Source: a virus
Direction: 5' to 3' (one strand)
Length of the DNA stretch: 39,352 nt
IMG/VR virus record: IMGVR_UViG_3300020596_000058
Location: 1-39,352 of that record
The notes below the pieces were generated by a model. The model searched no databases. It was not told the DNA's origin and was given only the letters and a program-made list of their open reading frames with translations. The position numbers were made by a program, and so were the translations under genes. The stretch's first letter is position 1. Every line of letters starts with the position of its first letter. This document shows, piece after piece, positions 4,085 through 29,413 of the stretch.

Positions 4085-4299
4085 GGTCGCCACCACCTGG
4101 AGGCCACAACGTCCGCCTTCCACAGTTCGGGAGTGCCGTCGACGTAGCCGCGTGCCACGGGCTCCAACTCGACTTCGAGGTCGGTGGTGGCGGGGTCCAA
4201 TCCGATGCAGCGGAGGACACCCCTCGCCCGTTCGCATGCGTCGCCGTAGGTGGTGACGCCGTGCAACTCGAACGATGCGACCCTCACGTAGCGGTTCAT
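4081..4299 (-). CDS. Small hypothetical protein (72 aa)
   Basis: ATG 4299 overlaps the stop of the ribbon-helix-helix gene (ATGA), and its own stop overlaps the next ATG. The sequence begins MNRYVRVASFELHGVTTYGD and has a central CIGLDPATTDLEVELEPVARGYVDG segment, which looks like a small alpha/beta fold. Not recognised. As second gene after the early promoter it should be expressed early. Confidence 0.65.
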   Translation of the reverse strand: MNRYVRVASFELHGVTTYGDACERARGVLRCIGLDPATTDLEVELEPVARGYVDGTPELWKADVVASRWWRP

Positions 4300-12414: not shown

Positions 12415-12987
12415 GGTCGCCTCCCTTCAACATCACTTCACGGACCAGCAAGTTCAGATCCCCGATCCGCTCCGGGTACACCTGCGCCGGCGACCAGACG
12501 AACGGCTCACGGGCGAACGTCACGAGGTAGTCGGAGACTCCCCCGACACGCTCGAGCACGAAGGGGGTTCCGTCGTCGAGCTCGACGATTCCCCACTCCC
12601 CAAAGGGGACGGGTTCACCTCGTACTGGTCGAGGGCGCCCATGATCTCGTTGGCGGTGTGCGCGTCGACCCGCTCCTCTGCCGCCTCGACGGTGAGACCG
12701 TCACGATGATGCGCGGCAGCGACCAAGATCGCCGACATGTGCACCGCTGACCGGGTCGGCTCGATCATCACCCACGACAGGCTCGTGATCTTCTCAACCG
12801 TCTTCGCTTCCGCCAACGTCATGTCGTCCTCGGTGATCTCCACGTCGTCGATGCGGAGCCGCCACCGCATCGTCGAGAACCCCGACTGTTGCCGCTTCAC
12901 GATCGAAGCGAGCACGTCGGCCAGATGGCCGTCGAGGTCACCGGAGAGGATTGACGCGCACGTTGACGCAGCCGGGTCGTCTGCCAT
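12401..12987 (-). CDS. Tail assembly chaperones G and G-T (made by programmed -1 frameshift)
   Basis: The 0-frame product runs 12987-12520 (155 residues, MADDPAASTCASILSGDLDG... ). At 12607-12601 the slippery heptamer CCCTTTG lies in the correct C CCT TTG phase. A -1 shift there opens a frame down to TGA at 12403-12401, giving a 195-residue fusion whose tail reads GEWGIVELDDGTPFVLERVG and on to NLLVREVMLKGGDRGSD. After the site the -1 frame has the better amino-acid composition, whereas the 0-frame end (SSSSTTEPPSCSSVSG) looks like low-complexity run-off. G and G-T together guide tape measure and tail tube assembly in siphoviruses, and the position directly ahead of the tape measure fits. Confidence 0.85.
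12601..12607 (-). other. Slippery heptamer CCCTTTG for -1 ribosomal frameshift
   Basis: The minus-strand sequence is C CCT TTG in the zero frame, a canonical X XXY YYZ heptamer. Shifted tRNAs would re-pair on CCC TTT. It is followed by GGGG and a GC-rich stretch that could form stimulating structure. It lies at codon 129 of the chaperone gene. Confidence 0.85.
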
Positions 12988-12997
12988 TTGGGGCCTC

Positions 12998-13474
12998 CTA
13001 GAACACTGAGCGGAGACCGCGGTTCAGTTCCCGGTTGAAGATGACAGGGGTCTGCGCCGCGACCTTGGGTTGGCTTGCCTCGAAGAACTTCTTGCCACGC
13101 GTCGCCCCACCGACCGACGTGGCACGGGCCGAACCGTTGAACGACAGGGCCCGCTTCGCGTTCCGGCCACGCGTCTTCGGCTTGATCTCGTAGCCGCCCT
13201 TGCGGGGGTTGTTCGCAAGGTGCGCCGGGCCCCGATACGAGACGATCGCCGTAGCGTGCAAGCCGCCGCGAACATTGAAGCCGACGCCGATCTTCGCCCC
13301 CGACTTCCCGACACCCGACAGCCGCGAACTGTTCGCCGCGGCCGCCTCGGCGAGCATGACCACCTTCGCCGCCAGGGCCGCCTCGCCGGTCGCCCGACGT
13401 GTGATCGCAGGCATCTTCGTGCCGAAACCTGCGAGCTTCGCGCCGAGCTGACCGGACGAGACTGAGGTGCCCAC
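12998..13474 (-). CDS. gp10-like tail/neck component (tentative)
   Basis: 158 residues, GTG 13474. Basic and Ala/Gly-rich: helical N-terminal half (MPAITRRATGEAALAAKVVM) then a GVGFNVRGGLHATAIVSYRG strand pair and PRKGGYEIKPKTRGRNAKRAL. The RGPAHLANNP and KPKTRGRNAKRAL features resemble HK97 gp10-type tail completion proteins in other actinophages. It lies between the major tail protein and the chaperones; most phages place this type just before the major tail protein, so the order is swapped here if the call is right. It could also be a tail-associated protein with another role. Confidence 0.6.
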   Translation of the reverse strand: MGTSVSSGQLGAKLAGFGTKMPAITRRATGEAALAAKVVMLAEAAAANSSRLSGVGKSGAKIGVGFNVRGGLHATAIVSYRGPAHLANNPRKGGYEIKPKTRGRNAKRALSFNGSARATSVGGATRGKKFFEASQPKVAAQTPVIFNRELNRGLRSVF

Positions 13475-13478
13475 AGGC

Positions 13479-13880
13479 TCAGGTCTTCACCACGTCGGAC
13501 GTGGCGTTGAACCCACCGGAGATCGCGACCGCGCCACCCACGTCGCTCTCCACCTTGAAATCGAACGTCGCCGTCCCGAACCAGTACTGGGCCAGGTTGT
13601 CGGTCGTCGGGTACAGGTAGAAGGACCGGGCCGCACCGTCGACCGCGGCCGTGTAGAGCTGGTTGTTGGCCGTGTCGTAGAACCCGGCGAACGAACCGGA
13701 CGCGTCGGGGAGACCCGACACCATCACCTTGTTCCGGTCGCCGAACACGGTCACGTCGACATCGTCGGTCTCGAACGTGATGTCCCACTTGGAGAGGTTC
13801 GCGACCGCCTCAGCGGAAGCGGTCGAGGATGCGAGACCGACGTAGAGTCGGCCCTTACGTCCGTGGATGGGTCGGGCCAT
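13479..13880 (-). CDS. Major tail (tube) protein
   Basis: 133 residues, ATG 13880 with AGGAGG about nine bases upstream. The sequence (GRKGRLYVGLASSTASAEAV, KWDITFETDDVDVTVFGDRN, GSFAGFYDTANNQLYTAAVD, and an end with GGAVAISGGFNATSDVV) is a textbook small siphovirus tube fold: beta-rich, with a DVTVFGD strand and the final beta-sandwich. It polymerises into the tail tube. The chaperones and tape measure follow directly. Small for the family, but within range. Confidence 0.88.
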   Translation of the reverse strand: MARPIHGRKGRLYVGLASSTASAEAVANLSKWDITFETDDVDVTVFGDRNKVMVSGLPDASGSFAGFYDTANNQLYTAAVDGAARSFYLYPTTDNLAQYWFGTATFDFKVESDVGGAVAISGGFNATSDVVKT

Positions 13881-13934
13881 AGCAGGGTCCTCCTGGTGAG
13901 GGAAGGGCTGCGCCGGGCCCGGATGGGTTGGGAA

Positions 13935-14945
13935 TCAGGCCAGAAGACGAAGAAGCCGTCGGGCATGGTTGTGGAACGTGCGGTCAGCGACCGCCGCCTG
14001 TGCTTCCGCGATGACACGGGCCCGTTCTTCGGGCCGGTCGAGCCACCATCGGATCTTGCGGCCCAGATCGTCGGGGCCGTCGAACGTCGGGACCATCGGC
14101 AACACGGCACGGTTCTCGCCGCGTGCTTCAGTCAGATAGAAGGTGCCGCAGGCGGCCAGCTCGACCTCGCGGGGACCCATCGCCCAGCCATCAGCATGGG
14201 CACGGGCAGTCGCTTCCTGCCGGTAGATGTTCAGAGAAAGCTTCGACCGGCGATACAGGTCGGCGGCCGTGCCGTTGGCGATGCACTCGTCTGGTTTGTG
14301 GACCAGGAACGGGCGGAGAACATGGTCGTCGTCCAGCGGCCAGTTCCCGGCCAACGCCACCGACAACCCCGACCAGTCGACCTGCTCAAGCATCTTGATG
14401 CGGGACGGATAGCCGGTACCCACAAACGACACGTCGAACTCGGCCGGCTCCTCCGTCGGATGGTGCACATCCGGGTCGTAGGCGTGACCGAAGTATTCGG
14501 TGGGGGCAACCTCCCGGAACCGTTCGATGTTCGTCGGGTCGTTCAGCAAGTTCAGGTCAACATGGTGTGCGCGGGCCCATTGCCGGTCGTCCTCATACGG
14601 CGACTCGGTGTGCAACAGAACCACCTTGTGGCCCCGGTCCCGCATCACGTCATAGGTGGCCGGGTCGAAGTAGAACCCGGACACGACGATCACCACATCG
14701 GGCCAGAACCGGTAGCACGCCGCCTCCAAACCTCGGCACGCCAGACGGACCGCTTCTTCCGTTTCGAAACACTTCTCGAACGGGCCGTCGTCGTTGGAGA
14801 CGTGCGACTTCTCGTAGAACTCGAGCCGGTCGTTCAGGTTGAACTCGCCGACATCGCACCCCGCCTGGCGGAGCGCTTTCGCCCAACCGGCCCACACGTC
14901 GGCCACCGAGAACGACGGCCCCGGATGGCAGATGAGAACTCTCAC
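13935..14945 (-). CDS. CgeB-like glycosyltransferase (GT4-type fold)
   Basis: 336 residues; GTG 14945 overlaps the upstream stop as GTGA, and an open frame upstream is a shadow. It starts MRVLICHPGPSFSVADVWAG with a Rossmann-like first strand. The second half carries DVSFVGTGYPSRIKMLEQVD, SKLSLNIYRQEA and PREVELAACGTFYLTEARGE, the pattern of the CgeB/glycosyl-transferase-1_2 family that joins a sugar to a protein or another sugar. It sits in the middle of the neck/tail genes, directly before the major tail protein, so it probably modifies virion proteins or works with the block at 21.5-16.8 kb. Confidence 0.85.
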   Translation of the reverse strand: MRVLICHPGPSFSVADVWAGWAKALRQAGCDVGEFNLNDRLEFYEKSHVSNDDGPFEKCFETEEAVRLACRGLEAACYRFWPDVVIVVSGFYFDPATYDVMRDRGHKVVLLHTESPYEDDRQWARAHHVDLNLLNDPTNIERFREVAPTEYFGHAYDPDVHHPTEEPAEFDVSFVGTGYPSRIKMLEQVDWSGLSVALAGNWPLDDDHVLRPFLVHKPDECIANGTAADLYRRSKLSLNIYRQEATARAHADGWAMGPREVELAACGTFYLTEARGENRAVLPMVPTFDGPDDLGRKIRWWLDRPEERARVIAEAQAAVADRTFHNHARRLLRLLA

Positions 14946-15346
14946 GTGCTCATGTCGTCGCGGAGGAACGGAAGGTCCGACTGGGCGAGGAGCACGTCGA
15001 GGTCGGCGTCGTACCCCCACGACCAGGGCGCCCTCCCGAACTCGTCGTCGGGCAGCAGGTCGATCGCTTCCATTGTCGCTATCAGCGCCGACTGTGCTGT
15101 CTCCGCCCCCAGATCTTTCGACGACGCGTAGACGCGGAGGCGGGCGGTGACCATCGTCGCGTCCATCGCCGGGTCACCCGGCGCGACCGTCACCGCCAAC
15201 GCCGTCGGGAGGCCCTGCGGCCCCGGCTCGTACGCGTACACAGCCTGCACACCCAACGCCGACAGAGCGACGATCGGAACAGTCGACGACGACGTGAGGG
15301 CAAGCGACCTGTGCAGCTGTGTGATCGCCTGCTGAAGCTGGCTCAC
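14942..15346 (-). CDS. Neck protein, tail-terminator-like (tentative)
   Basis: 134 residues. GTG 15346 overlaps the connector stop by four bases. The N terminus is helical (QLQQAITQLHRSLAL) and the rest alternates strands with an acidic C terminus (PWSWGYDADLDVLLAQSDLP). A small protein of this kind follows the head-tail connector in many siphoviruses and closes the tail tube at the head end. No sequence motif proves it; the call is from gene order and size. Confidence 0.55.
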   Translation of the reverse strand: MSQLQQAITQLHRSLALTSSSTVPIVALSALGVQAVYAYEPGPQGLPTALAVTVAPGDPAMDATMVTARLRVYASSKDLGAETAQSALIATMEAIDLLPDDEFGRAPWSWGYDADLDVLLAQSDLPFLRDDMST

Positions 15347-15969
15347 CCGGCCACCACCGGCGCCTCCATCTCACGGAACAGGAGGCCCTTCACCCGGTTC
15401 AGGAGCTCGGGGCCGAGGGTGATGAACGCCCCCGACTCGTCGCCACCGCCGTACGTGTCGGTGCCCATGCCGTTGCCGTTCTGCCAGCAGTCGCGGAGGA
15501 TCAGCGCAGCCGCCTGCTTGAACGTCGCCATGCCGGCGTCGGACGCGGTCGTGTGTGTGTACCGGCCCGCCGTGTACCCAATGACGACGTTGCGGCGCCC
15601 CTCAGGGAAGTAGGAGTCGCCGTTGCCGTTGCGGCGCCACACCTTGCCCTGCTCGTCGAACTGGAACCCGGTCGCCGGCTGCGACGTGTTCGAGGACGAC
15701 GTGAGCGTCGTCGCGGTGGTGGCGGCGTACTCGACCAGCGACGTGACGTTGGCGACGGGGCGTCGTTGCGTCCACACGAAGAACCCGCCGCCGTCGAGGT
15801 TGTCGGACTCGGCGCGCTGGACGACCGCACCGCACAGCCGGTCCAGTTCGTTGGACACGGCGGTGGTGAGCAGGTCGAGACGGCCGAGGGTGTCGGCCGT
15901 CTGCGATGCGGTGGTGAGCCCGAGGGCGCGTGCCGCTTCGGCTTGGGTGAGCACGTCGGTTGTCGCCAT
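15343..15969 (-). CDS. Head-tail connector/adaptor protein
   Basis: 208 residues. ATG 15969 shares a base with the upstream stop (TGATG). The N-terminal helices (VLTQAEAARALGLTTASQTA, LLTTAVSNELDRLCGAVVQR) followed by a beta hairpin region (RRPVANVTSLVEYAATTATT) and a C-terminal helix (TFKQAAALILRDCWQNGNGM) match the gp6/gp15-like adaptor fold: a helical bundle that attaches under the portal. Position between the capsid genes and tail genes supports this. Confidence 0.72.
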   Translation of the reverse strand: MATTDVLTQAEAARALGLTTASQTADTLGRLDLLTTAVSNELDRLCGAVVQRAESDNLDGGGFFVWTQRRPVANVTSLVEYAATTATTLTSSSNTSQPATGFQFDEQGKVWRRNGNGDSYFPEGRRNVVIGYTAGRYTHTTASDAGMATFKQAAALILRDCWQNGNGMGTDTYGGGDESGAFITLGPELLNRVKGLLFREMEAPVVAG

Positions 15970-16478
15970 CAGGCTGCCGCCTCGTAGTCGAACTGGACGG
16001 TCAACGAATCGCCGGCCGCCCACGTGAACGGCACCGTGGCGCCGGTCGGGTTGTTTCCCGCCGACAACTGGGCGCCGCCGCCCAAGAAGAAGAGCGCTTC
16101 GCCGTCGGCGTTGAGAGACGGTGAGATCGCCGCGGCCGTCAGGTAGAAGGCGACACTGTTTGAAATGTCGACCAGATAGCCGGTGCCGATCGGCTGCTGC
16201 CGGCTCACCGGCAGAACCGGCAACACCAACGAATAGGTGCCAGACCCGACCGTCGCCAACGTGCACCCCACGTAACCCCACACGCGACGACCGAGCCGCT
16301 GGTAGTAGCCGGACGACGACACGTCGAGCGTCGGGTTCGACCCGGTGCCCTTCATCACGGGAGTGAACGCGGTGAACGGCACGTTCGGGACCGCCGTCTG
16401 CACGTCCACCGACACAGCCCCCGACGACGCCACCGACACGCCGATCGGCGCAGCGCCCGTCAACGTCACGTCGCTCAT
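15969..16478 (-). CDS. Hypothetical beta-rich structural protein
   Basis: 169 residues, rich in Ser/Thr/Val/Gly with few charges, suggesting a beta-sandwich (SVASSGAVSVDVQTAVPNVP; GTYSLVLPVLPVSRQQPIG). No family recognised. It lies between the BppU-like small protein and the connector, so it is probably a virion protein such as a head decoration or neck-fibre. ATG 16478 overlaps the upstream stop by ATGA. Confidence 0.62.
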   Translation of the reverse strand: MSDVTLTGAAPIGVSVASSGAVSVDVQTAVPNVPFTAFTPVMKGTGSNPTLDVSSSGYYQRLGRRVWGYVGCTLATVGSGTYSLVLPVLPVSRQQPIGTGYLVDISNSVAFYLTAAAISPSLNADGEALFFLGGGAQLSAGNNPTGATVPFTWAAGDSLTVQFDYEAAA

Positions 16479-16816
16479 GTGGTCACATCCCGACGGACCG
16501 TGAAGTCGCCCAACAGGAACGTCCTCGTCATCGACCCCGACCGGTACTGCAGATCCCAGACGAACGTGCCGTCATTCAGCGCCGACATCGACGACGACGA
16601 CAGCGACAAGGTCAGCGCCGTCGTGTTCCCAGCCGTCGTGTACGACAAGCTGCCCGTCGTCAACGCTGTGGCCGGCGTTTCGCCGTAGGCGGGACGGATC
16701 GTCCCCGACCATACGAACGTCTCCCACCGGCCCCCGATCGTCAACGGAACCGACATGGTGTCGCCCCTCGTGAACGTGAAGTTCAGCTCTCCGGGGTTCT
16801 GGTCGTAGTCGGCCAC
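16475..16816 (-). CDS. Small beta-rich protein resembling a BppU-type N-terminal domain
   Basis: 113 residues. GTG 16816; it overlaps the GT gene upstream by 34 bases, the longest overlap in the block. LNFTFTRGDTMSVPLTIGG then WSGTIRPAY and GTFVWDLQYRSGSM resemble the N-terminal domain of BppU-like baseplate proteins and other small virion adhesion domains. It might be a decoration protein carrying the sugar made by the neighbouring glycosyltransferases, but this is inference. Confidence 0.6.
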   Translation of the reverse strand: MADYDQNPGELNFTFTRGDTMSVPLTIGGRWETFVWSGTIRPAYGETPATALTTGSLSYTTAGNTTALTLSLSSSSMSALNDGTFVWDLQYRSGSMTRTFLLGDFTVRRDVTT

Positions 16817-17487
16817 TGGTCACCCCACTTTCCTTGTAGACGGCGAACGTTCTCGGCGACGCCAGCCCACCGTTCCGGACCGGACTGCGACTCGTGATGC
16901 ACCAACATCGACTCGGCGACATAGGCGACGCGGTCCCCAGCCCGAAGGCACAGGTCAACGTCCTCGTAGCCGTTCCAGAACCCTTCGTCGAAACCGCTGT
17001 GGCGGCGGAACCACGGCCCCGCAACGGCGAGACAGGCACCCGTCACCGCTGCCACCGGGCCCGACGGATGTGGCACCGTCCGGTTGCGGGCCACCAACGT
17101 GCCCGCTTCGACGGCGACCGTCACACCGGCATGCTGCGTTCGGCCATCCGGGTACACAAGATGCGGACCGGCGATCAGAGCACCAGCGTCGATGGCGGCG
17201 ACGAGCGGATCCAGCCACCGCGGCTGCGGGACGGTGTCGTCGTTGAGGAACACGTACACGTCGGCGCCGGTGGCCATCTCGGCGCCCCGGTTGCACCCGG
17301 CCGCGAAACCGAGGTTCCGGCCAGCGGTACACCACGCTTTCGGACCGGTGCGGAAGATCGGCGACCCTACGAACCCGTTGTCGACCACCACCCGCACATG
17401 TTCGGGGGTGTGCTCTTCGAGGGCGCTCAGACATGCGGCGAGGAGGTCCGGCCGGTTGAACGTCGGGATCACCACGGCGACAGTCAC
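16783..17487 (-). CDS. Family 2 glycosyltransferase
   Basis: 234 residues; GTG 17487 overlaps the upstream stop as GTGA. The N terminus is a textbook GT2 start (VAVVIPTFNRPDLLAACLSA), followed by AGRNLGFAAGCNRGAEMATG and ADVYVFLNDDT with the DDT acid motif, then FRRHSGFDEGFWNGYEDVDLCLRAGD. This type uses a nucleotide sugar to extend glycans and is like rhamnosyltransferases of wall or capsule synthesis. It is the last enzyme of the sugar block before the neck genes. Confidence 0.9.
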   Translation of the reverse strand: MTVAVVIPTFNRPDLLAACLSALEEHTPEHVRVVVDNGFVGSPIFRTGPKAWCTAGRNLGFAAGCNRGAEMATGADVYVFLNDDTVPQPRWLDPLVAAIDAGALIAGPHLVYPDGRTQHAGVTVAVEAGTLVARNRTVPHPSGPVAAVTGACLAVAGPWFRRHSGFDEGFWNGYEDVDLCLRAGDRVAYVAESMLVHHESQSGPERWAGVAENVRRLQGKWGDQWPTTTRTPES

Positions 17488-18233
17488 CGGCAGCACCAGG
17501 CCGGGACCGGATCGTCGACGAGGTGGGGGGTGCCCATCAGCCCGTCCCACCGGTCCGCCATCTGCACATCGGAGAGCAGGCCACCTTCCCGCCAGTGCGT
17601 CCCGTGCATCGGGTGGATATCCGACGCCTCGTACGCCTCGCGGCCGTTGCGGAGCTTGCGGGCCATCTGCTCGAGGGTCCGGTATTGGAAGTGGCGGAAC
17701 GCCAGCGGCCCGGAGAGGCGGGTGCCGGGACGGTCTACGTCGTGGTTGCCCATGTGGAGGCGAGCATCCGGGTGGGGGCGGAACGCCACCTTCGGCATCT
17801 GCTGGGTCTGTTGGCGGTGCCGGGGCATCGCAGCGAACGGACAGCGCCGGTCGGCGTCGACTGCTGTGCGGATGTGGTCGTAGCCGGGGGCGGCGACCAC
17901 GTCGGCGGTGCATGCGTCGAACGCTTCGGCGAGCGTGCGGTAGCCGACCGGATACCAGACTTCGTCGGCGTCGAACGGGAGCACCCAGTCGGCGCCCATG
18001 TCCGCCGCCTGTGTGGCGAGCCTGGTCATCTTGTCGTCCTGGTAGTAGCCGGGCTCTGCGTCGTAGGCGACGGTGACCCGGTCGCCGAACCCGGAGAGGA
18101 TGGTGGCGGTGGCGTCGGTGGACCGGTTGTCGGCGACGATGACATGATCGACGCCGTGCGCGAGAAGGTGACCGACGGTGTGCGATGCCACGTCGGCTTC
18201 GTCGCGGAACATCGACACGGCGATGACGGTCAC
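17484..18233 (-). CDS. Family 2 glycosyltransferase (Glyco_tranf_2_4 type)
   Basis: 249 residues. GTG 18233 overlaps the upstream stop (GTGA). MFRDEADVASHTVGHLLAHG then DHVIVADNRSTDATATIL and GADWVLPFDADEVW show the family 2 pattern with a DADE acid motif. The C-terminal half includes MGNHDVDRPGTRLSGPLAFR and HFQYRT. Such enzymes attach sugars in wall or exopolysaccharide synthesis. It is coupled by four bases to both neighbours, so the whole block is cotranslated. Confidence 0.85.
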   Translation of the reverse strand: MTVIAVSMFRDEADVASHTVGHLLAHGVDHVIVADNRSTDATATILSGFGDRVTVAYDAEPGYYQDDKMTRLATQAADMGADWVLPFDADEVWYPVGYRTLAEAFDACTADVVAAPGYDHIRTAVDADRRCPFAAMPRHRQQTQQMPKVAFRPHPDARLHMGNHDVDRPGTRLSGPLAFRHFQYRTLEQMARKLRNGREAYEASDIHPMHGTHWREGGLLSDVQMADRWDGLMGTPHLVDDPVPAWCCR

Positions 18234-18802
18234 CGGGTCAGAACCGCCAACGATGCGACCTGCTCGAGCAGCGTCCACCCGTCGGCGACCGCCTCGTCCC
18301 GAACCCGGCCAGGGCCCACGTCGGTCGTGTCGTGCAAGGCGACCACCCCGCCGTCGACAACAAGCTCGGACCATGCGGCAAAGTCGGCTTTGCACGCCTC
18401 GTAGGTGTGCGAGGCGTCTATGAACACGAAGCCGGGTCGGATGCCTGTTTCGGCGAACGTCGCGCCGGACCCGACGACGGGGACAACGACGCCTTCGAGG
18501 CCGTTGTCGCGGACTGCGGCGACTAGCACGTCGAGGCTGCCATGCTCGTGCGCCCACACGTCGGGGTGGTGGCACTCTCGGCCGGCGGCCATCTCAGGGT
18601 TCCCGCGATGCGGGTCGACAGCGAAGACGATGGTCCCGGTGTGTTGGGCGGCTTGGCCGAGCGCACATGCGGACCGGCCGCAGTAGGAGCCGATTTCGAC
18701 CCACGGGCCGGGGCAGCTGGCGGCGTGGGCGGCGAGCGTCTCGAACTCTCCGGGGTGGGACCATCCGGGGATATGGCCGAAGACGAGCGGATCGTCGGGC
18801 AT
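18230..18802 (-). CDS. SAM-dependent methyltransferase (class I, Methyltransf_24 type)
   Basis: 190 residues; ATG 18802. WVEIGSYCGRSACALGQAAQ is the SAM-binding motif I, then VFAVDPHRGN (acidic residue of motif II) and GFVFIDASHTYEACKADFAA followed by DGGVVALHDT, the pattern of sugar and natural-product O-methyltransferases of the Methyltransf_24 family. Between an acyltransferase and a glycosyltransferase, it most likely methylates a sugar in the virion glycan. One base separates it from the acyltransferase stop. Confidence 0.85.
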   Translation of the reverse strand: MPDDPLVFGHIPGWSHPGEFETLAAHAASCPGPWVEIGSYCGRSACALGQAAQHTGTIVFAVDPHRGNPEMAAGRECHHPDVWAHEHGSLDVLVAAVRDNGLEGVVVPVVGSGATFAETGIRPGFVFIDASHTYEACKADFAAWSELVVDGGVVALHDTTDVGPGRVRDEAVADGWTLLEQVASLAVLTR

Positions 18803-18803
18803 G

Positions 18804-19379
18804 TCAGGTTGCCCGTGCTGGGATGCCGACGGCGGTGACCGCGTCGGGAAGGTCGGACAGGACAACAGCACCAGCGCCGACGACGACGTGATCCCCGATG
18901 CGGGTGAGGTTGGTGACGACAGCACCGGCACCGATCACGGTCCGAAGGCCAATGGTCACATCGCCGCAGATCGTCGCGCCGGGACAGATGGTGGTGAAGG
19001 CGCCGATGATGGTGCGGGTGACGGTGACGCCCGTGTGGACGTGCACGTGGTCGCCGAGGTGCACGTCACGGTCGAGGACTGCGCCCGCAGCGACGACACA
19101 CCCGACACCGAACGACACGTTCGGGCCGACGGTCGCCGACGGATGCACCAGAGGCCGACGAGAGGCCCTTCCCGTCTGTGCGAGGCGTTCCCGGTCCGCT
19201 GGGGCGTTCACCCCGACGAACAGATTTCCGTTCACGGCGGGCCGCACAGCGGGAGGGCCGATTACGAGCGGAAGGTCCGCATCGTCGTCGAGGAACCCGA
19301 CGAACCGGTGACCGGCAGCGTCGACGATCGCCTGAAGGTCACGGCCATGGCCGCCAGCACCGACGATCACGACGTTCAC
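18804..19379 (-). CDS. PglD/NeuD-like sugar O/N-acyltransferase (left-handed beta-helix)
   Basis: 191 residues. GTG 19379 (GTGA overlap). The N terminus, NVVIVGAGGHGRDLQAIVDA then FVGFLDDD, is the nucleotide-sugar-binding Rossmann part of PglD/NeuD proteins. The C-terminal half has hexapeptide repeats (VHPSATVGPNVSFGVGCVVA, GAVLDRDVHLGDHVHVH, GAFTTICPGATICGDVTIGL and so on to IGDHVVVGAGAVVLSDLPDA), giving a left-handed beta-helix that carries an acyl-CoA-dependent active site. It probably acylates the sugar used by the nearby glycosyltransferases. Confidence 0.9.
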   Translation of the reverse strand: MNVVIVGAGGHGRDLQAIVDAAGHRFVGFLDDDADLPLVIGPPAVRPAVNGNLFVGVNAPADRERLAQTGRASRRPLVHPSATVGPNVSFGVGCVVAAGAVLDRDVHLGDHVHVHTGVTVTRTIIGAFTTICPGATICGDVTIGLRTVIGAGAVVTNLTRIGDHVVVGAGAVVLSDLPDAVTAVGIPARAT

Positions 19380-20011
19380 GGCTGCCACCCCGGCGAACCC
19401 ATGCCGCCAAGCTCGCCGACATGCAGACAGCGCGGCGGATCGCCACGCTGACCCCACACCCCGAACCCACGATCAGACCACCGTTCGGTCAGCACCGACT
19501 CGACGCCCCCACCACCAGCGACCACATCGGCGGGAATCAGCGAAGGGTTCAACCAGAACCCCTCACGGTGGAACAGGTACTCGTCACGCTGCTCGTAGGC
19601 AGGCGACTGCTGGTAGCCGTCGGCGGCAACCTCGTCCGGCGACCACGGCTGACGCAGCAGGCACATCTGGGCGAGGCCATCACGGTCGACCACATCGGCC
19701 ATGCCGTCGAGATCGACCGGCTCGCACAGCTGGAAGTCTTCCTCCAGGTGGAACACGTAGTCGGCGCCGGAACGGGCTGCGATCGCCCACGCAGTCGAAA
19801 CGGCCTCGGACAGACCGGAACGCCTGTCGAAGTGCAACGTCCAGCAGTCCAACGGGTCCGGGGCGCCGCCAGCGTCGTCGACGACGATGCGAGGCTCCAA
19901 CCGATCCCATGGCAACATCTGACGGGCCAGCTCCAACGTCGCCGGCAGATACGTGGACCCACGGTGCGACGTGACGGTGAGAGCGAACCGACGCTCCCGA
20001 GCAGGGATCAC
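19376..20011 (-). CDS. Glycosyltransferase-like protein (GT-A fold)
   Basis: 211 residues, GTG 20011 (GTGA overlap). FALTVTSHRGSTYLPATLEL starts a GT-A-like fold; GLSEAVSTAWAIAARSGADY followed by VFHLEEDFQL gives the acidic metal motif (EED) at the usual distance. The C-terminal half has FWLNPSLIPADVVAGGGGVE. Distant from the typical family 2 members, so the exact class is unclear, but a sugar-transfer role is likely from the acid motif and block context. Confidence 0.75.
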   Translation of the reverse strand: MIPARERRFALTVTSHRGSTYLPATLELARQMLPWDRLEPRIVVDDAGGAPDPLDCWTLHFDRRSGLSEAVSTAWAIAARSGADYVFHLEEDFQLCEPVDLDGMADVVDRDGLAQMCLLRQPWSPDEVAADGYQQSPAYEQRDEYLFHREGFWLNPSLIPADVVAGGGGVESVLTERWSDRGFGVWGQRGDPPRCLHVGELGGMGSPGWQP

Positions 20012-21495
20012 GCCGCTTCCTCGGCGGGCGCCCACTTGCTCACGAACCGGGCATGGTCCTTCTCGTACGCGGCCCGCATCTTCGGCGACAGCGACTCCAA
20101 CCAGTCGCCGCCGTGGGTGGCGTCGGCCCCGTCGGTCGTTGTCTGCCCGCCACCGTCGACATGCTCCACCGTCGTGCCCGTCACCATCAGCGCAGCGCCA
20201 CCAGAGCGGGCCACGTTCATGACGAGCTCGTTGTCGCCGAAGAACCAGTCGAGGTCCTCGTCGAACGGGGGGAACCCACGGGCGAACATCTCACCGCGAA
20301 CCATGTACGCGAACCCGGCCAGGCCGCCCGTCCCGTCGTAGCGGCCAGCGCAGATCCCCGACAGCGGCACCAACGGCTGGACGGTCGGGCGCATGTCGTA
20401 GTTCGGGCACACCACCAGGCACCGAGGGTCAGACCGCAACCCGGCAGCCAAACCGGGCAGGAACCCGTCGCCCAAGATCAGGTCGTTGTTGAGGATGGCG
20501 ACGTTGCACGGAGCCTGCGCGTGGGCCAACGACCGGCGGATTCCGTCGTTCCACATCTGATGTATGCCCCACCCGGCGGCGTCGATCACCTCGAGGCCCG
20601 GCGTGTCCAACGTCGACAGCCAGTTCTTCGTCGTCCGGTTCGAGCCGTTGTCGAACAGGAACACCCGCTCGTAGCCGCCCTGCGCGGCGAGCTGGTCGAG
20701 TAGGGCGCCGGTGAGGTCTCGGCGGTCCTTGATCGGCACGACGACGTACGTGGCCGCTGGGGGTTCCTGCCCGAACTGGGCGAAGTAGGCGCGGTCGTCG
20801 TAGACGAGCGGCTTCACGTGGCCGACGACGATGCGAGTGTCGACGTGGGTGGGGACGCCTGCCGCAGCGGCCCGGTAGCAGAAGGTGAGGTCTTCGCCCA
20901 TCACGTCGGCGCCCTCGGCCGTCTGCCACGGCGCGAATTCGAACCAGGGGAACGAACGTTCACCGAACGGACGGCTGTCGGGGGTCGGCTGATATGCGGC
21001 GACCGTCTCGAACACGGTGCGGTGCACGAGGAGACACCCGGCGCCCGTCGCCGAGAACTGGTAGACGCCCGCCGGTTCGGGGAGGTGCGTGACCCGCGCC
21101 GGGAGCGGCGGGTCGTCGTCGGTGAGGGCGTACAGGGTGGGGATGACCTCTTGGCCGTGGCCTCGCATGACGGCGAAGCAGAGGGCGCCGAGGATGGGCC
21201 GGGTGTCCGGGTCGGCTTCTTCGATCATCCGGTCCAACGTGTCGGGCCGGAAGCTCATGTCCGAGTCGATGAACCAAAGCCAGTCGCAGTCCGTGTTCAG
21301 GAACTGGTCGACGATCTGGTTGCGGCCGTGGGCGACGTTGGTGGTGCCGAGCATGATGGACGCGCCGCCGGCGACGATGCGTCCGTGGTGTTGGGCGTCA
21401 TGCGCGAGGAGGTGGGTGATGGATTGGACGTAGTGCGGGTCGAACGTGCCGTAGGGGGTGGCGATGGCGACCTTCTCGCCCGTGTGGTCACGCAT
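20008..21495 (-). CDS. Two-domain glycosyltransferase
   Basis: 495 residues. ATG 21495 is inside the end of the upstream gene (8-base overlap). Domain 1 (residues about 8-270): VAIATPYGTFDPHYVQSITH, LNTDCDWLWFIDSDMSFRPD with DSDM acid motif, and GEDLTFCYRAAAAGVPTHVD. Domain 2 (about 275-480): TYVVVPIKDRRDLTGALLDQ, VFLFDNGSNRTTKNW, then CNVAILNNDLILGDGFLPGL with an NND motif and LDWFFGDNELVMNVARSGG. Two GT-A units in one chain often add alternating sugars. It is the first large enzyme of the sugar block after the capsid gene. Confidence 0.88.
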   Translation of the reverse strand: MRDHTGEKVAIATPYGTFDPHYVQSITHLLAHDAQHHGRIVAGGASIMLGTTNVAHGRNQIVDQFLNTDCDWLWFIDSDMSFRPDTLDRMIEEADPDTRPILGALCFAVMRGHGQEVIPTLYALTDDDPPLPARVTHLPEPAGVYQFSATGAGCLLVHRTVFETVAAYQPTPDSRPFGERSFPWFEFAPWQTAEGADVMGEDLTFCYRAAAAGVPTHVDTRIVVGHVKPLVYDDRAYFAQFGQEPPAATYVVVPIKDRRDLTGALLDQLAAQGGYERVFLFDNGSNRTTKNWLSTLDTPGLEVIDAAGWGIHQMWNDGIRRSLAHAQAPCNVAILNNDLILGDGFLPGLAAGLRSDPRCLVVCPNYDMRPTVQPLVPLSGICAGRYDGTGGLAGFAYMVRGEMFARGFPPFDEDLDWFFGDNELVMNVARSGGAALMVTGTTVEHVDGGGQTTTDGADATHGGDWLESLSPKMRAAYEKDHARFVSKWAPAEEAA

Positions 21496-21649
21496 CGTCG
21501 GACGCCTCCACGGCACCACACCGGTTGCACACATACGCGACGGGTATCCCGTAGTTGCGCGCGTAGAGGGGTTCCCGGTCGGCGTGGTCGCACTGTGCGA
21601 CCGTCCGCCGCTCACCTGGGGCAGCAGTCGCCTGCTCGATGTCATCCAT
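21488..21649 (-). CDS. Small zinc-ribbon-like protein (53 aa)
   Basis: ATG 21649 with GGAGG about eight bases upstream. The protein ends CDHADREPLYARNYGIPVAY then VCNRCGAVEASDDA, with four Cys/His ligands (C..H..CxxC). It lies between the capsid-gene hairpin and the first glycosyltransferase and overlaps that gene by eight bases. It is too short to name and may be a translational lead-in for the sugar block. Confidence 0.6.
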   Translation of the reverse strand: MDDIEQATAAPGERRTVAQCDHADREPLYARNYGIPVAYVCNRCGAVEASDDA

Positions 21650-21770: not shown

Positions 21771-23237
21771 CTACAGGCGGAGCATCCGGAAGGCGTCGTC
21801 AGCGACGGAGTCGCCACCCGTCCGCCAGAACGCCACCCAGCCGACCTCGCCGGTCGGACGCTGGTTCGCGCCCTTCACCAGCGGCTCGTACATCAGCTCC
21901 ATGCCCATCCGGTCGACGATCACGTACTGGGAGAAGTCGCCCAGGACGATCACGTCGTCGTTCGAGCCGGACACGACGGTCGTGTCCATCGCCGAGGACT
22001 GGTACACCGGGTAGCCGATGAGCTGCGGGGGCAGACCGCCACCGAAGTCGGTCCAGAACGAGTGCGCCGTGGTGCTCGTCCCGAGCTGGCGGGTGTCGTT
22101 CCAGACCTTCTTCGCTCCGACGAACGACGCACTGTCGCGCCAGCGCGGGCCGAGGTCGTTGTCGAGTGCGTAGATGTCCGCAGCCACGAGGGTGGCGGCA
22201 CCAGCAGCACCGGACGAACCGGCGACCCTGCTGGCCGTGGTCAGACCGAGAGCCGTCGCGATCCCGAAGGGCTGACCGGAACCGGAACCGACGGCGAACG
22301 CCGATGCCTCCAGCCGGTCCTTCGCGTCGGCGATCAGCATCGTGATCTCACCGGAGATCGCCGAGTCGGCGACCACCTCGAGCGACGCCTGGATGTAGGC
22401 GTCGGCCTTGTAGACGGTGATCGACGGCTGCACGAACACCGGAGACGCATCAGCCACCTGCGAGGCCTCAGCGATCCACTCGGCGGTCACACCGGCGGAG
22501 GTCACGCCGTTCCAGTCGTCGGTCGTGATCGTCTCGACCCGGCTGATCTGCCGGAACGGGTTCGTGGACCCTGCGTTCGTCAGGATGATGGTCGGGTCCA
22601 GGGTGAACGGGACGAGGAAGCCACCGTTGGCGCCGGACAGGGACAGCGCAGCACGCTGAGCCTCCGGCGACGCCTGCGACAGCGCCATGCTGGCGTTCTG
22701 CGGGCTCCGCATCACAGCCCGGAACGCCTCGTGGTAGGCGGGCGACCCGTGGTCGAGCAGGTAGCGGGCCTTCTCGCCCGACACGCCACGCTGCACATCG
22801 TGCTCGACGTGGAAGGTGGCCTGCTCGCGCTCACCGTCGGTCATGTGCGGTGCCGACTCGATGGCCTTCAGCGCACGGCCACGCATCTCGTCGCGGACGG
22901 CGGCGTCCGAACCGGCGGCCATCACAGCGGACCGGTAGTCGAACGGGTCGGCGTCGGTGCGGGTCTGGATCTGGAAGCCGGCGTCGCGGGTGCTGTCGCC
23001 GGCCTCGACGGTGAACTGGCCGGGCAGGCTCACGAGCTCGCGGAGAGCGGCACGCTGCTCGGCGCGCTTCTCCTCCGCGACGATCTCGGACTGGCGCTGC
23101 TCGAACAGCGCCAGGCCGTCGTCGAGGCGGACCTGCTCGTCTTCGGTGGCGGACCGGTCACCGATCTCCACGTCAAGGTCGCGGAGTGCGGCCTTGAGGA
23201 AGTCGGCGTCGGCCCGGAGGGAGTCGATGTGCTCCAT
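21771..23237 (-). CDS. Major capsid protein, HK97 fold
   Basis: 488 residues, ATG 23237 with GGAG ahead. An N-terminal charged coiled-coil delta domain (residues about 1-80; LRADADFLKAALRDLDVEIG, LFEQRQSEIVAEEKRAEQRA) is followed by a linker and the mature shell domain from about residue 195 (GFLVPFTLDPTIILTNAGST, then SAGVTAEWIAEASQVADASP). The E-loop, spine helix (ITMLIADAKDRLEASAFAVG) and GYPVYQSSAMDT strand match the HK97 fold. The delta domain should be removed by the neighbouring protease. Confidence 0.95.
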   Translation of the reverse strand: MEHIDSLRADADFLKAALRDLDVEIGDRSATEDEQVRLDDGLALFEQRQSEIVAEEKRAEQRAALRELVSLPGQFTVEAGDSTRDAGFQIQTRTDADPFDYRSAVMAAGSDAAVRDEMRGRALKAIESAPHMTDGEREQATFHVEHDVQRGVSGEKARYLLDHGSPAYHEAFRAVMRSPQNASMALSQASPEAQRAALSLSGANGGFLVPFTLDPTIILTNAGSTNPFRQISRVETITTDDWNGVTSAGVTAEWIAEASQVADASPVFVQPSITVYKADAYIQASLEVVADSAISGEITMLIADAKDRLEASAFAVGSGSGQPFGIATALGLTTASRVAGSSGAAGAATLVAADIYALDNDLGPRWRDSASFVGAKKVWNDTRQLGTSTTAHSFWTDFGGGLPPQLIGYPVYQSSAMDTTVVSGSNDDVIVLGDFSQYVIVDRMGMELMYEPLVKGANQRPTGEVGWVAFWRTGGDSVADDAFRMLRL

Positions 23238-23247
23238 TGGGGGCTCC

Positions 23248-23985
23248 TTACGGGAGGTTGATTCGACGGAGAAGCGCGGCGCGCTCTCCGGGGGTCATCC
23301 CGCTAGGTGGCCGTCCGGCCGGGCTGTCGGGGGTGCTGCTGGCTGCCTGCGTGCCCTCAGGGGCGGGGCTGGCAGAGATCGGGTTGCCCTCAGGGTCGAG
23401 CAGTGCTGCCCGGAACGCTGGGGGGGTCGCGAGGAACATCTGGAAACCGGGCGCCGAGCGGATGCCGACCGCTGTCGCCTGATAGGCGGGGAAGGTGACC
23501 GGCCCCGCCTCAGGCACAGCGACCTCATGCAACGACCGTTCGGGGAGACCGTCAGGGTTGTGCTCCGACCGGGGCGGGTGGTCGTCCCACCGGTCGCCGT
23601 CCTTCGGCACCGAGAACCGGAACGACGCACCGTCGATCGCACCGTCGGCCAACAGAGCCCGCAGATCCCGGTTGTAGCTCGTGTCCGACAGCGGAACGGT
23701 CATGTGGAGGCCGTGGTCGTCCTCGTGGAACTCGCCACGCCCCAACGGCTTGTCACCGATCGCCGGGTCCATGCCGTGGTTGAACAGCACCTTCGGCGCG
23801 CCACGATGATCCAAGGACCGCCTGAACGCACCCGGCACGATCCGCTCGAGGAACCGGCCCTCCCACGAGTTGATCTCAGTCCACTCGTCGAACACGGCGA
23901 CGTACCCGAACAGGGTGTTCCCGTCGCCGAGTGCTGGCGCTTCACGGACCTGGGCGCGGATGAGATCGGCGCGGGGAGTGTCCAT
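23248..23985 (-). CDS. Prohead maturation protease (HK97 U35 type)
   Basis: 245 residues. ATG 23985, SD in the GAGGAGGAG of the portal end. FGYVAVFDEWTEINSWEGRF, ERIVPGAFRRSL and VLFNHGMDPAIGDKPLGRGE show the U35 protease pattern with the catalytic His in the FNH motif. DGASFRFSVPKDGDRW and LHEVAVPEAGPVTFPAYQAT give the second half of the fold and the conserved P-A-Y end of the core. The last 50 residues are Pro-rich and flexible. It cleaves the capsid N-terminal domain during head maturation. Confidence 0.92.
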   Translation of the reverse strand: MDTPRADLIRAQVREAPALGDGNTLFGYVAVFDEWTEINSWEGRFLERIVPGAFRRSLDHRGAPKVLFNHGMDPAIGDKPLGRGEFHEDDHGLHMTVPLSDTSYNRDLRALLADGAIDGASFRFSVPKDGDRWDDHPPRSEHNPDGLPERSLHEVAVPEAGPVTFPAYQATAVGIRSAPGFQMFLATPPAFRAALLDPEGNPISASPAPEGTQAASSTPDSPAGRPPSGMTPGERAALLRRINLP

Positions 23986-23987
23986 CG

Positions 23988-25340
23988 TTACTCCTCCTCT
24001 GAGGGCTGCGCCTGCCCGGTATGGGACGGGTCCTGCCCGTCCGGGTACAACGTGGTCGGGATCGCCCCCGTGTGCGGCAACGACGACAGATCACCGGACG
24101 CCACCGCCAAGCCGATCGCATCAGGCTCGAACCCGGCACGGACCAGCAGATCCATCGTGATCGCCTGCGCCTTCGTGACCTCCGCCGAATCGCGGGCATC
24201 GTCACGCAAGAACGGGATGTCTCTCGTGTCGACGATCAGCTTCGAGCCGGGCCGACGAGGGACCAGCGCAGCGATCGCGGTCGCAGCCGCCTTCCACCTC
24301 GGATGGCAGGTGATGTCCGCATACCGGCGGCGAGCCTGGCTGTAGTTCGAGTACGTCGCCGACTGCAGGCCCTCAGCGAACCCGGCGATCACCGGGGGCA
24401 CACCAGCCACCGCCGCCAAACGGGTCTCGCCGGCACCCTGCGTCGCCTTGAACGCGATCTGCTCGAACGACTGGCCGACCACCGTCACATCGGCACCGCC
24501 ACCCAACACGATGTTCTTGTACGCGTTCGCGACGCCCGCATAGTCGTGGTCGAACCGTTCAGCGAACGCCTTTGCGGCGTCCTCGCTCACCGACTTGTCG
24601 AGCGTCACCACCAAATTAGGAGTTGCGGCGTGGTTGAAAAACTCGAGCTTGTGGCGGCTCATCGCCGCGTCGGCCTCCACCTCTCGGAGCACCGGCGTCA
24701 ACCACGACATGCCCCGCCACCGGGCCAACGGATCGGGAATCGGCGAATAGTGGGCGACCTCGTCGGCCGACAACAGCACCGCGTTGTCCGAGTCGCCGTC
24801 CGGGCAATACATGTACCCGACGACCGTCGAATCCAGCTCCGACAGCTGCACACCCTCCACCACACCCTGACGGGCCCCGGAGATCACCGTCACCCAGTCG
24901 GGACGCAGGCGGACGATCTCGTTGCCACGGCGCACCGCATACCAGTTCCCGGCCAGCGCCACGTCCTGCTCCATGCGAGCAAGGAGCTCCTGCGTCGACC
25001 CGCCCGGCCACGGGTCCTCCAACACTGCCAAGTCGGCGGTGCCGTACACCTCGCCGTCGACGTTCTGATATGCGAACCGTCCCTCAGCGATCGTCGACTG
25101 CAACACCAACGCCAAAGCGAACACCGGCCCGTTGGACATGTACGCGCCACGCGCATACCCGGCGAAACTGTTCCCGATCGGCTCGTCGGCCACGTTCCCG
25201 TAGGTGGTCCGCACCGGCTGCGCGTAGTTGTTCCCACCGAAGGACCATGTCGCCATCTGCGACAGCCACCACTCCATCCCGAACCGGGAATCGGAAGCGG
25301 CAGGCTTGCGGCCCACGAAGCGGTCAAGACGGGATGTCAT
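23988..25340 (-). CDS. Portal protein
   Basis: 450 residues, ATG 25340. Motifs typical of HK97-type portals: AYMSNGPVFALALVLQSTIA early on, GNWYAVRRGNEIVRLRPDWV, VAHYSPIPDPLARWRGMSWL (wing region), then PNLVVTLDKSVSEDAAKAFA and GVPPVIAGFAEGLQSATYSN with the clip/crown part behind. It forms the dodecameric DNA gate at one capsid vertex and docks the terminase. Its start overlaps a small membrane-protein gene by 17 bases. Confidence 0.92.
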   Translation of the reverse strand: MTSRLDRFVGRKPAASDSRFGMEWWLSQMATWSFGGNNYAQPVRTTYGNVADEPIGNSFAGYARGAYMSNGPVFALALVLQSTIAEGRFAYQNVDGEVYGTADLAVLEDPWPGGSTQELLARMEQDVALAGNWYAVRRGNEIVRLRPDWVTVISGARQGVVEGVQLSELDSTVVGYMYCPDGDSDNAVLLSADEVAHYSPIPDPLARWRGMSWLTPVLREVEADAAMSRHKLEFFNHAATPNLVVTLDKSVSEDAAKAFAERFDHDYAGVANAYKNIVLGGGADVTVVGQSFEQIAFKATQGAGETRLAAVAGVPPVIAGFAEGLQSATYSNYSQARRRYADITCHPRWKAAATAIAALVPRRPGSKLIVDTRDIPFLRDDARDSAEVTKAQAITMDLLVRAGFEPDAIGLAVASGDLSSLPHTGAIPTTLYPDGQDPSHTGQAQPSEEE

Positions 25341-25482
25341 CGTCGACCTCCTCGAGCGTCAGCCACCACAAACCGGCGAACACGAACCCTGCGAACAGCA
25401 GACCCGCAGCCGGTTCGACGAACAGGCCGAGCGAAGCGGACAGGCAGACGGCAGCGACGTACAGCGGCAGATGGCGGATCAT
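25324..25482 (-). CDS. Small membrane protein between terminase and portal (52 aa)
   Basis: ATG 25482 overlaps the terminase stop (ATGA), and the gene runs into the portal start. The peptide, MIRHLPLYVAAVCLSASLGL then FVEPAAGLLFAGFVFAGLWW and an acidic tail (LEEVDDDIPS), has two hydrophobic segments separated by E23-P24, so two short membrane passes or a hairpin. A membrane peptide in this slot is unusual. It may have a role at the host membrane in assembly, or be a second holin-like peptide; no family recognised. Confidence 0.65.
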   Translation of the reverse strand: MIRHLPLYVAAVCLSASLGLFVEPAAGLLFAGFVFAGLWWLTLEEVDDDIPS

Positions 25483-27143: not shown

Positions 27144-27565
27144 CAAGACGCCTGCGGATCAACCAGCCGCAACTCCGGCCGCTTCCCCCGCTTCCTGGGA
27201 ACAGCCTTCGCCTGCTCGCCGCCCACAATCCGCCACCGCGCCTCCTTGCGCGCCTTCGGGGTCATGCACAGCATCGACTCGAGATGCCGCATCTCAGCCA
27301 GCAGCCCCAAGTTGCCGTCCTGCCATAGATCCTCGAGCTCAGCCCGACGACCAGCAAGCAGCTTCTCGGAGCCGCCCCACTGCGTGGCCTCCGGCGTCTT
27401 CCACGCCAACGACCACCAGGACTTCCCAGCCTCCCGCAGAGTGACATGCTTCGGTGTGGCCGGCGCCTTGCCCTGCCGACCCGCATGCGGCAGATCGGTC
27501 CAAGGCACATCGCGCCCCGGCCGCTGCTGGCGGTCCGGGCTGTCTGAGGGCGTCGGTCCGGGCAT
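27143..27565 (-). CDS. Terminase small subunit (probable)
   Basis: 140 residues starting at ATG 27565, eight bases after GGGAGG; a TTG six bases upstream is less well spaced. Charged helical protein with SWWSLAWKTPEATQWGGSEK, ELEDLWQDGNLGLLAEMRHL and a basic C terminus (KAVPRKRGKRPELRLVDPQA). Many actinophage small terminases have this W-rich, RHLE-containing helical centre. Directly upstream of the large subunit with one-base overlap. It recognises phage DNA for packaging. Confidence 0.8.
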   Translation of the reverse strand: MPGPTPSDSPDRQQRPGRDVPWTDLPHAGRQGKAPATPKHVTLREAGKSWWSLAWKTPEATQWGGSEKLLAGRRAELEDLWQDGNLGLLAEMRHLESMLCMTPKARKEARWRIVGGEQAKAVPRKRGKRPELRLVDPQAS

Positions 27566-29077: not shown

Positions 29078-29413
29078 TCAGTGTGTGTTGGGGTCGAGGA
29101 GCTGGCGGAGGATGGGTTGGAGGGCGGCTTCGCGTTGGGCCAGGTGGGCGAACGCGCGGGCGGTGTGGTCGGGGTCCATGTGGGCGCGGAGGCTTTGGTA
29201 CGGCACGTCCCATCGGCGTGCGACTTCCGCCCATCCGAGTGTGGCGCGCCCATGTCGGGGGTTCCGCTCGTCGTCCTCGTAGACATCCACCTGTACCTGT
29301 AGCGGGCCGCCTTCCTCGGGGTCGCCGTGGCGTCGCCACCGGTCGTAGTGCGTCTGGCACCAGCCGCGCGCCACGTGCTTCCCGTCACAGCCGTCGATCT
29401 GGCAGACCCGCAA
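29078..29413 (-). CDS. Zinc-motif plus HTH-like protein, paralogue of the 3932-3642 gene
   Basis: 111 residues, probable TTG 29413 with GAGGA about eight bases upstream. Starts with RVCQIDGCDGKHVARGWCQT then HYDRWRRHGDP, the same CCCH zinc module as in the 3932-3642 protein. A linker (PLQVQVDVYEDDERNPRHGR) leads to a LGWAEVARRWDVPYQSLRAH segment that looks like HTH. The C terminus is helical with LREAALQPILRQLLD-type composition. Both paralogues lack the HNH catalytic core. It lies next to the repeat tract and might bind it. Confidence 0.7.
   Translation of the reverse strand: MRVCQIDGCDGKHVARGWCQTHYDRWRRHGDPEEGGPLQVQVDVYEDDERNPRHGRATLGWAEVARRWDVPYQSLRAHMDPDHTARAFAHLAQREAALQPILRQLLDPNTH

Follow-up and report, generated by a model that had tools for sequence, protein, structure and literature searches.

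A small number of mycobacteriophages are known to glycosylate their virions, with the capsid and the tail tube as the reported targets (PMC11600133, PMC12619734, PMC12363180, all citing Freeman 2023). In phage Corndog, an O-methyltransferase and three glycosyltransferases are encoded within the structural operon (PMC4351075). Here we describe a set of sugar-modification genes among the structural genes of an environmental virus. The window analysed is the entire IMG/VR record IMGVR_UViG_3300020596_000058 (39,352 bases), which is classed as linear and therefore possibly does not represent the whole genome.

Seven open reading frames lie on the minus strand at positions 16783-21649, between the capsid and connector genes, where the first-pass annotation had placed a sugar-modification block. 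The block follows the gene of an HK97-type major capsid protein (21771..23237, minus strand; Pfam Phage_capsid E 5e-42, phrog_10) and starts with a zinc-ribbon-like protein of 53 amino acids (21488..21649; C..H...CxxC), which has an ATG start with GGAGG upstream and homologues directly ahead of GT1 in the related contigs L010 (51%) and L300. It is followed by the two-domain glycosyltransferase GT1 (20008..21495), a GT-A-fold glycosyltransferase (19376..20011), a PglD/VioB/PerB-like left-handed beta-helix acyltransferase homologue (18804..19379), a class I SAM methyltransferase (18230..18802) and the two family 2 glycosyltransferases GT2a (17484..18233) and GT2b (16783..17487). The four-base overlaps described earlier are exact at four junctions, but the zinc-ribbon and GT1 genes overlap by 8 bases and a gap of 1 base separates the PglD-like gene from the methyltransferase gene. 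GT2b overlaps by 34 bases with the next gene, which encodes a 113-amino-acid protein (16475..16816, minus strand; phrog_1084, a family without assigned function). The remaining genes towards the tail, all on the minus strand, encode a Ser/Thr-rich protein of 169 amino acids with no Pfam or PHROG match (15969..16478), which is a speculative candidate for a virion or acceptor protein, a head-tail adaptor (15343..15969; phrog_442 E 7e-11), a probable tail terminator (14942..15346), named for its position and with a homologue at the equivalent place in L300, a CgeB-like glycosyltransferase (13935..14945; PF13524 E 1.5e-16) and the major tail (tube) protein (13479..13880; phrog_10528 and phrog_1407, major tail protein). 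The separate placement of a CgeB-like enzyme ahead of the major tail gene is confirmed. The block and the CgeB gene together comprise 5.9 kb, or 15% of the record. Six glycosyltransferase domains had been counted (the two halves of GT1, the GT-A-like protein, GT2a, GT2b and the CgeB-like protein), and this count agrees with the Pfam and PHROG matches and with an AlphaFold2 model of the GT-A-like protein.

The order capsid-GT1-GTA-PglD-GT2a-GT2b ... CgeB-tail is kept in more than 20 other contigs with capsids of 36-62% identity, and the block genes are under purifying selection (median dN/dS 0.07-0.24). Due to this recurrence and selection, the presence of the genes cannot be put down to chance. 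The first-pass annotation had called the block "inserted", which is misleading because the neighbourhood is old and conserved. In 59 of 80 IMG/VR loci, which were fetched by the capsid alone, the GT1 N-domain (GT1N) gene stands immediately 3' of the capsid gene; it is absent in 11 loci, and 10 are too short. The presence or absence of GT1N requires about 3 changes on the deep capsid tree, compared with 13.1 for shuffled labels. The cultured Gordonia and Mycobacterium relatives compared all lie within one group without the glycosyltransferase on this tree. The IMG/VR loci were retrieved with alignments; single-sequence scans of IMG/VR gave few loci.

The N-half of GT1 is of the GT-A type (motif DSD) and matches phrog_1574, to which no function is assigned, as well as a phage glycosyltransferase PHROG. 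The C-half belongs to family 2 (NND; PF00535), and residues D77, D79, E201, D202, N336, D338 and D421 are invariant across 16 diverse GT1 sequences, with a dN/dS of 0.13 against the homologue in L002. Across 39 dereplicated loci, capsid and GT1N distances are strongly correlated (r 0.88, 0.83-0.93; partial 0.86). The controls are far weaker, with r 0.40 for capsid-protease, r 0.41 for capsid-portal and 0.17-0.19 for the adaptor, although the adaptor gene often lies directly 3' of GT1N. GT1N therefore co-varies specifically with the capsid gene and not with protease, portal or adaptor. A tblastn search of GT1 against 50,697 phage records returned only four weak matches in Streptomyces phages. 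A class-wide search found the capsid-GT1N neighbourhood in one Acidimicrobiia-class bin, a locus that may be a binned phage contig, and few loci came from the host genome scan.

The CgeB-like gene almost always accompanies the major tail gene: among testable loci, the two adjoin in 77 of 78 seeded with the tail gene and in 80 of 80 seeded with CgeB. The distance correlation of the pair (0.51) is no better than those of neighbouring genes (0.49-0.52), so that for the tail only linkage speaks for a functional pairing. No match to CgeB was found by tblastn at 1e-5 in the same 50,697 phage records. The structure prediction of the major tail protein reached a pLDDT of 39.

The GT-A-like protein (EED motif) has no Pfam match, and its AlphaFold2 model (pLDDT 86, pTM 0.87) shows a GT-A fold for which Foldseek gave TarP, B4GALNT1 and GalNAc-T2 at E ~1e-6; viral GT-A proteins give further support. 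As residues E90 and D92 of its acidic metal motif are invariant, the predicted fold and the motif identify it as a GT-A glycosyltransferase. GT2a (DADE motif; PF13704 E 2e-12, also PF00535) and GT2b (NDD and GYEDVDL motifs; PF00535 E 5e-14) each contain, as does the C-half of GT1, a family 2 domain recognised by Pfam in which the catalytic acidic residues are conserved, and their catalytic motifs are conserved in 22 and 19 sequences, respectively. The assignment of the next enzyme as a PglD/NeuD-like acyltransferase holds for its architecture, which consists of a PglD_N domain and hexapeptide repeats with VioB as best PDB match (E 5e-40). It needs a caveat for its activity because, in the PDB alignment, the catalytic His of PglD and VioB is replaced by Arg122. 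Arg, together with a one-residue deletion, occurs in 26 of 28 phage PglD-like sequences; the contigs L009 and L010 keep His. The methyltransferase gene (Methyltransf_24 E 4.4e-19) had no homologue in the relatives by tblastn, and other methyltransferases occupy the equivalent place in L009 and L010; the enzyme is accessory and missing from most relatives. The enzymes downstream of GT1 are reassorted among relatives, including the GTA and PglD genes, and in these phages the site also carries 4,6-dehydratases, a sugar C-methyltransferase and a UDP-sugar dehydrogenase. The earlier claim that the host has to supply the sugar donor agrees with the window record but fails for the group, because some relatives carry donor-sugar genes at the block site.

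The capsid-GT1N correlation could also reflect one recombination unit shared for another reason. Since the two genes are adjacent and a distance correlation cannot separate functional coupling from joint transfer, recombination breakpoints might simply spare this junction without any special functional tie to the capsid. We regard this as unlikely, as the equally adjacent pairs protease-capsid (r 0.40) and GT1N-adaptor (r 0.19) are uncoupled and the GTA and PglD genes slightly further on are reassorted. A different acceptor has also to be considered. Phage glycosyltransferases of the gtr type modify host surface glycans, and wall and O-antigen clusters typically contain family 2 enzymes together with acyl and methyl transferases. 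The enzymes might alter a glycan on the surface of the infected or lysogenic host, as in superinfection exclusion or serotype conversion, with their late-gene position being incidental. Host-surface modification has also been suggested for freshwater actinophages (PMC10202952). However, the block lacks genes for membrane proteins, flippases and lipid-carrier transferases (no block protein has a membrane segment, the maximum 19-residue hydropathy being 1.7), its genes lie within the late structural operon, GT1N co-varies with the capsid gene but not with protease, portal or adaptor, and CgeB is linked to the tail gene, so that we consider a host glycan quite improbable as the target.

Decoration of phage DNA by the glycosyltransferases in the manner of T-even phages, proposed for freshwater actinophage glycosyltransferases in the same report (PMC10202952), is in our view very improbable for this locus. 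The record does contain a DNA methylase gene (31441-32709), but it is of the N6/N4 type, and no base-hydroxymethylating or modified-base synthesis enzyme was found among the scanned genes of this possibly incomplete record. Moreover, acyl transfer, 4,6-dehydratase and sugar C-methyltransferase suit a complex glycan better than DNA, and the genes adjoin those for capsid and tail.

We therefore consider it probable, judging from gene content and context, that the block belongs to a virion-glycosylation system which the phage encodes and which works in the cytoplasm, and in which GT1 would serve the capsid and the CgeB-like enzyme the tail, with exchangeable elaborating enzymes. A decorated capsid or tail glycan, as suggested in the first-pass annotation, is the best-supported reading through the capsid-GT1N co-variation, the CgeB-tail linkage and the lack of membrane segments; capsid and tail proteins without an obvious Ser/Thr-rich C-terminal tail count against it. 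The first-pass interpretation as a whole is partly supported, and the roles it proposed for the glycan, evasion of host defence or binding to the cell envelope, are speculative. We infer that the virion proteins are the acceptors, and likewise which enzyme acts first and in what order the steps follow. The GT1 N-domain would transfer the first sugar onto the major capsid protein, and the chain might be extended by GT2a, GT2b, the GT-A-like protein and the C-domain of GT1. Modification of the sugars would fall to the PglD-like protein and the methyltransferase, this middle part being swapped between phages. The CgeB-like enzyme would play the matching role at the tail, acting on the major tail protein. 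The window phage would draw its sugar donors from the host, whereas some relatives contribute donor genes of their own.

Enzymes directly behind the capsid gene and one more ahead of the tail-tube gene recur in numerous relatives that are very distant and for the most part uncultured. This suggests that such viruses make sugar coats for themselves. With about even chances of being right, we speculate that, in a large group of tailed phages almost wholly without cultured members, a glycosyltransferase co-evolves with the capsid in nearly all capsid lineages and a CgeB-like one belongs to nearly all tail-tube genes, and that the exchangeable glycan cassette between them is a counterpart of capsule or O-antigen loci, changing the surface sugars while the shell protein stays constant. 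If so, self-glycosylation would be ancient and almost universal in a large group of environmental phages largely missed by culture collections. phrog_1574 would gain a function as capsid glycosyltransferase, and a CgeB-like neighbour would mark tail-tube glycosylation. The group would also be a source of protein-targeting glycosyltransferases matched to particular capsids, each enzyme-target pair being small enough for co-expression.

Compared with Gtr serotype-conversion clusters, the block shares phage-borne glycosyltransferases, but it has no flippase, lipid-linked transferase or membrane segments and sits among late structural genes. The GT-A-like protein has a fold like that of TarP, TarS and other family 2 GT-A enzymes, but with only 10-14% identity, a shorter length and no cell-wall context. 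Like the sugar N-acetyltransferases PglD, VioB and PerB, the acyltransferase homologue combines an N-terminal nucleotide-sugar-binding fold with a hexapeptide helix; those enzymes keep the catalytic His that most of the phage sequences have exchanged. The tail-linked enzyme belongs to the CgeB sequence family (PF13524), its phage subgroup being tied to the major tail gene. With Che8 (cluster F) and Corndog (cluster O), the window phage shares phage-encoded glycosyltransferases, and with Corndog also an accessory methyltransferase among the virion genes. However, its enzymes show no detectable homology to Che8 gp108-110 (hhalign probabilities 0.2-3%), and the Corndog genes lie between portal and protease, whereas the block stands directly 3' of the capsid gene with a separate tail-linked enzyme. 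The window phage differs from both in its acyltransferase-like gene and, in its relatives, in the donor-sugar genes. Mycobacteriophage glycans are reported at C-termini, whereas no Ser/Thr-rich C-terminus is obvious in the window capsid and tail proteins. The principle of virion glycosylation is thus already known from Che8 and Corndog, and what is new here are the enzymes, the breadth of their distribution and the co-variation with the capsid.

The window (39,352 bases, G+C 68.5%) covers a linear IMG/VR virus record from end to end and is, judging from its genes, best read as encoding a real, conserved two-target virion glycosylation system. On the minus strand, the genes of the large terminase (25479-27146), portal (23988-25340), protease (23248-23985) and capsid (21771-23237) are followed by the sugar-modification block from 21649 to 16783. 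Past the block come a phrog_1084 protein, a familyless protein, the head-tail adaptor, a probable terminator, the CgeB-like glycosyltransferase (13935-14945) and the major tail protein, the latter identified by PHROG profiles, with a probable tape measure and an endolysin further downstream. An ORF check upheld, with small corrections, the starts and overlaps that the first-pass annotation had assigned to the block genes, and five of the seven block proteins match curated Pfam families. Between block and adaptor, 15969-16478 encodes a Ser/Thr-rich protein of 169 amino acids without known family, a candidate decoration protein or acceptor of the glycan. Elsewhere the window encodes a phrog_1706 protein of the Cas4-like exonuclease family (837-1799), a protein with DUF6197 and pentapeptide-repeat (2536-3129), an N6/N4 DNA methylase near the DnaB-like helicase (31441-32709) and an ASCH-domain protein (37774-38580). 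Two separate proteins (3642-4220 and 29078-29413) share the motif C-Q-x-D-G-C-D-x-K-H-x-A-R-G-W-C-x-x-H-Y, and a similar motif occurs in a protein directly behind the capsid gene of the related contig L042.

The acidic motifs of the block glycosyltransferases are conserved; the PglD-like protein is an exception among the block enzymes in its catalytic residue. In the two-domain glycosyltransferase GT1, the acidic motifs D77, D79, E201, D202, N336, D338 and D421 are invariant among 16 diverse sequences, and those of GT2a, GT2b and the GT-A-like protein are conserved as well. The GT-A-like protein has no Pfam match; its model, built from 14 relatives (pLDDT 86, pTM 0.87), is closest, among solved structures, to glycosyltransferases of the family 2 type (TarP and B4GALNT1, for example), with viral glycosyltransferases also close. 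Median dN/dS values of the marine group range from 0.07 (GT1N, the N-domain of GT1) to 0.24 (GT2a), and the value for GT1 between the window and the related contig L002 is 0.13. Among solved structures, the PglD-like protein (18804-19379) is nearest to VioB, PerB and a pilin glycosylation protein of Neisseria. Of 28 phage sequences, 26 have arginine in place of its catalytic histidine (residue 122 in the window), and most phage copies combine the change with the deletion of one residue; only L009 and L010 keep the histidine. His113 is invariant. The protein may use another base, as some relatives such as QdtC probably do, or have another role.

We used the families of the capsid, GT1 and GT-A-like proteins to scan IMG/VR and searched the fetched contigs with all window proteins by tblastn. 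The order capsid-GT1-GT-A-like-PglD-like-GT2a-GT2b was found, complete or up to the contig end, in more than 20 contigs (including L029, L090, L093, L097, L098, L101, L102, L105 and L110), whose capsids are 36-62% identical to that of the window and in which the CgeB-like gene again lies further downstream, 5' of the major tail gene. Among 80 loci retrieved by capsid alone, 59 carry a GT1N homologue at most ~1.2 kb behind the capsid gene, 11 show none over at least 2 kb, and the remaining 10 do not extend far enough. Mapped onto a maximum-likelihood tree of 77 capsid sequences, presence or absence of GT1N requires 3 changes, against a mean of 13.1 for shuffled labels. All three cultured phages in the comparison (Eyre, Mcklovin and ridax), with connectors directly after the capsid gene, belong to one GT-less group. 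The counts and the tree thus indicate that the window shows the prevailing state of environmental relatives; the block is not a recent insertion.

After dereplication at 90% capsid identity, 39 loci were used to compare pairwise protein distances. Capsid and GT1N distances correlate with r 0.88 (subsampling range 0.83-0.93), far above capsid and its immediate upstream neighbour, the protease (0.40), capsid and portal (0.41) or GT1N and protease (0.33); given the portal, the partial correlation of capsid and GT1N is 0.86. Saturation does not explain this gap, because the four proteins are alike in mean identity (0.39-0.46). In the 33 loci with a recognisable adaptor, where GT1N stop and adaptor start in many cases lie only a few bases apart, the values are 0.85 (capsid-GT1N), 0.17 (capsid-adaptor) and 0.19 (GT1N-adaptor), a weaker control since adaptors are more diverged. 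Capsid and GT1N thus form a single evolutionary unit, although the operon recombines elsewhere. In functional terms, the simplest interpretation is that GT1N recognises the capsid protein, but the two genes could also have been transferred jointly for some other reason. The N-domain of GT1 (20008-21495) belongs to phrog_1574, listed as of unknown function, for which capsid glycosyltransferase is a probable annotation.

The genes downstream of GT1N are exchanged. Compared with L004, the capsid and GT1N of the window have 38% and 37% identity, but its GT-A-like and PglD-like proteins 66% and 65%; with L087, the values are 63% and 60% but 39% and 50%. Most relatives have no methyltransferase homologue by tblastn, and there GT2a directly follows the PglD-like gene. 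At this site L010 encodes a Methyltransf_23 protein, and L009 a different Methyltransf_24 protein and a UDP-sugar dehydrogenase. The UDP-glucose/GDP-mannose dehydrogenase gene ending the capsid-linked glycan block of L009 (8757-9461) is a phage-borne donor-synthesis gene. Between GT1N and adaptor, L015, L017 and L022 encode GDP-mannose/dTDP-glucose 4,6-dehydratase-type proteins and family 2 glycosyltransferases, and L015 a PF08484 sugar C-methyltransferase. In L015, a 43.8-kb phage contig, ~5 kb of sugar genes (11541-18145), among them this C-methyltransferase, a 4,6-dehydratase-type protein and extra glycosyltransferases, lie between capsid and adaptor. Among 106 proteins of this interval from 36 loci, the non-structural families that could be recognised are mainly those of glycosyltransferases and methyltransferases; the site behaves like a glycan locus of variable content.

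The CgeB-like gene lies upstream of the tail gene in 77 of 78 testable tail-seeded loci, nearly always within 120 bases, and the tail gene downstream in 80 of 80 CgeB-seeded loci. These figures hold for closer kin, as they were drawn from the best 80 of 300 and the best 80 of 437 relatives, respectively, with some contigs in both sets. The distance correlation of the two proteins (r 0.51) is no higher than that of flanking genes, so that the argument is one of linkage only. This pairing and the tight co-variation of capsid and GT1N are the surprising parts of our analysis.

All of the proteins lack membrane segments, which makes a lipid-linked route unlikely. We propose that capsid and tail subunits would be glycosylated in the cytoplasm, before or during assembly. 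GT1N might act first, then the C-domain of GT1, the GT-A-like protein, GT2a and GT2b, before acylation and methylation complete the glycan; this order is a guess, as are the acceptor residues on the two subunits. The genes scanned in the record include none for donor synthesis, in agreement with the first-pass annotation, and the host would therefore supply the sugar donor here. Both the relatives of the capsid and the base composition suggest a host among the Actinomycetota. One genome bin, which shares its class with an Acidimicrobiales MAG, includes a 34-kb contig that carries the genes for portal, capsid, zinc ribbon, GT1N, adaptor, CgeB and tail protein; binning errors are possible.

Between its portal and protease genes, mycobacteriophage Corndog encodes an O-methyltransferase and, next to two glycosyltransferases, an N-acetylglucosaminyltransferase (PMC4351075). 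According to later papers, enzymes of this kind modify capsid and tail tube (PMC11600133), the modification lies at the C-termini (PMC12619734), and Che8 gp110 and Corndog gp38 are required for that of the capsid (PMC12363180). The Che8 enzymes have no detectable relation to those of the window block. The window system would work like the virion glycosylation of Corndog and Che8 but may be a separate one.
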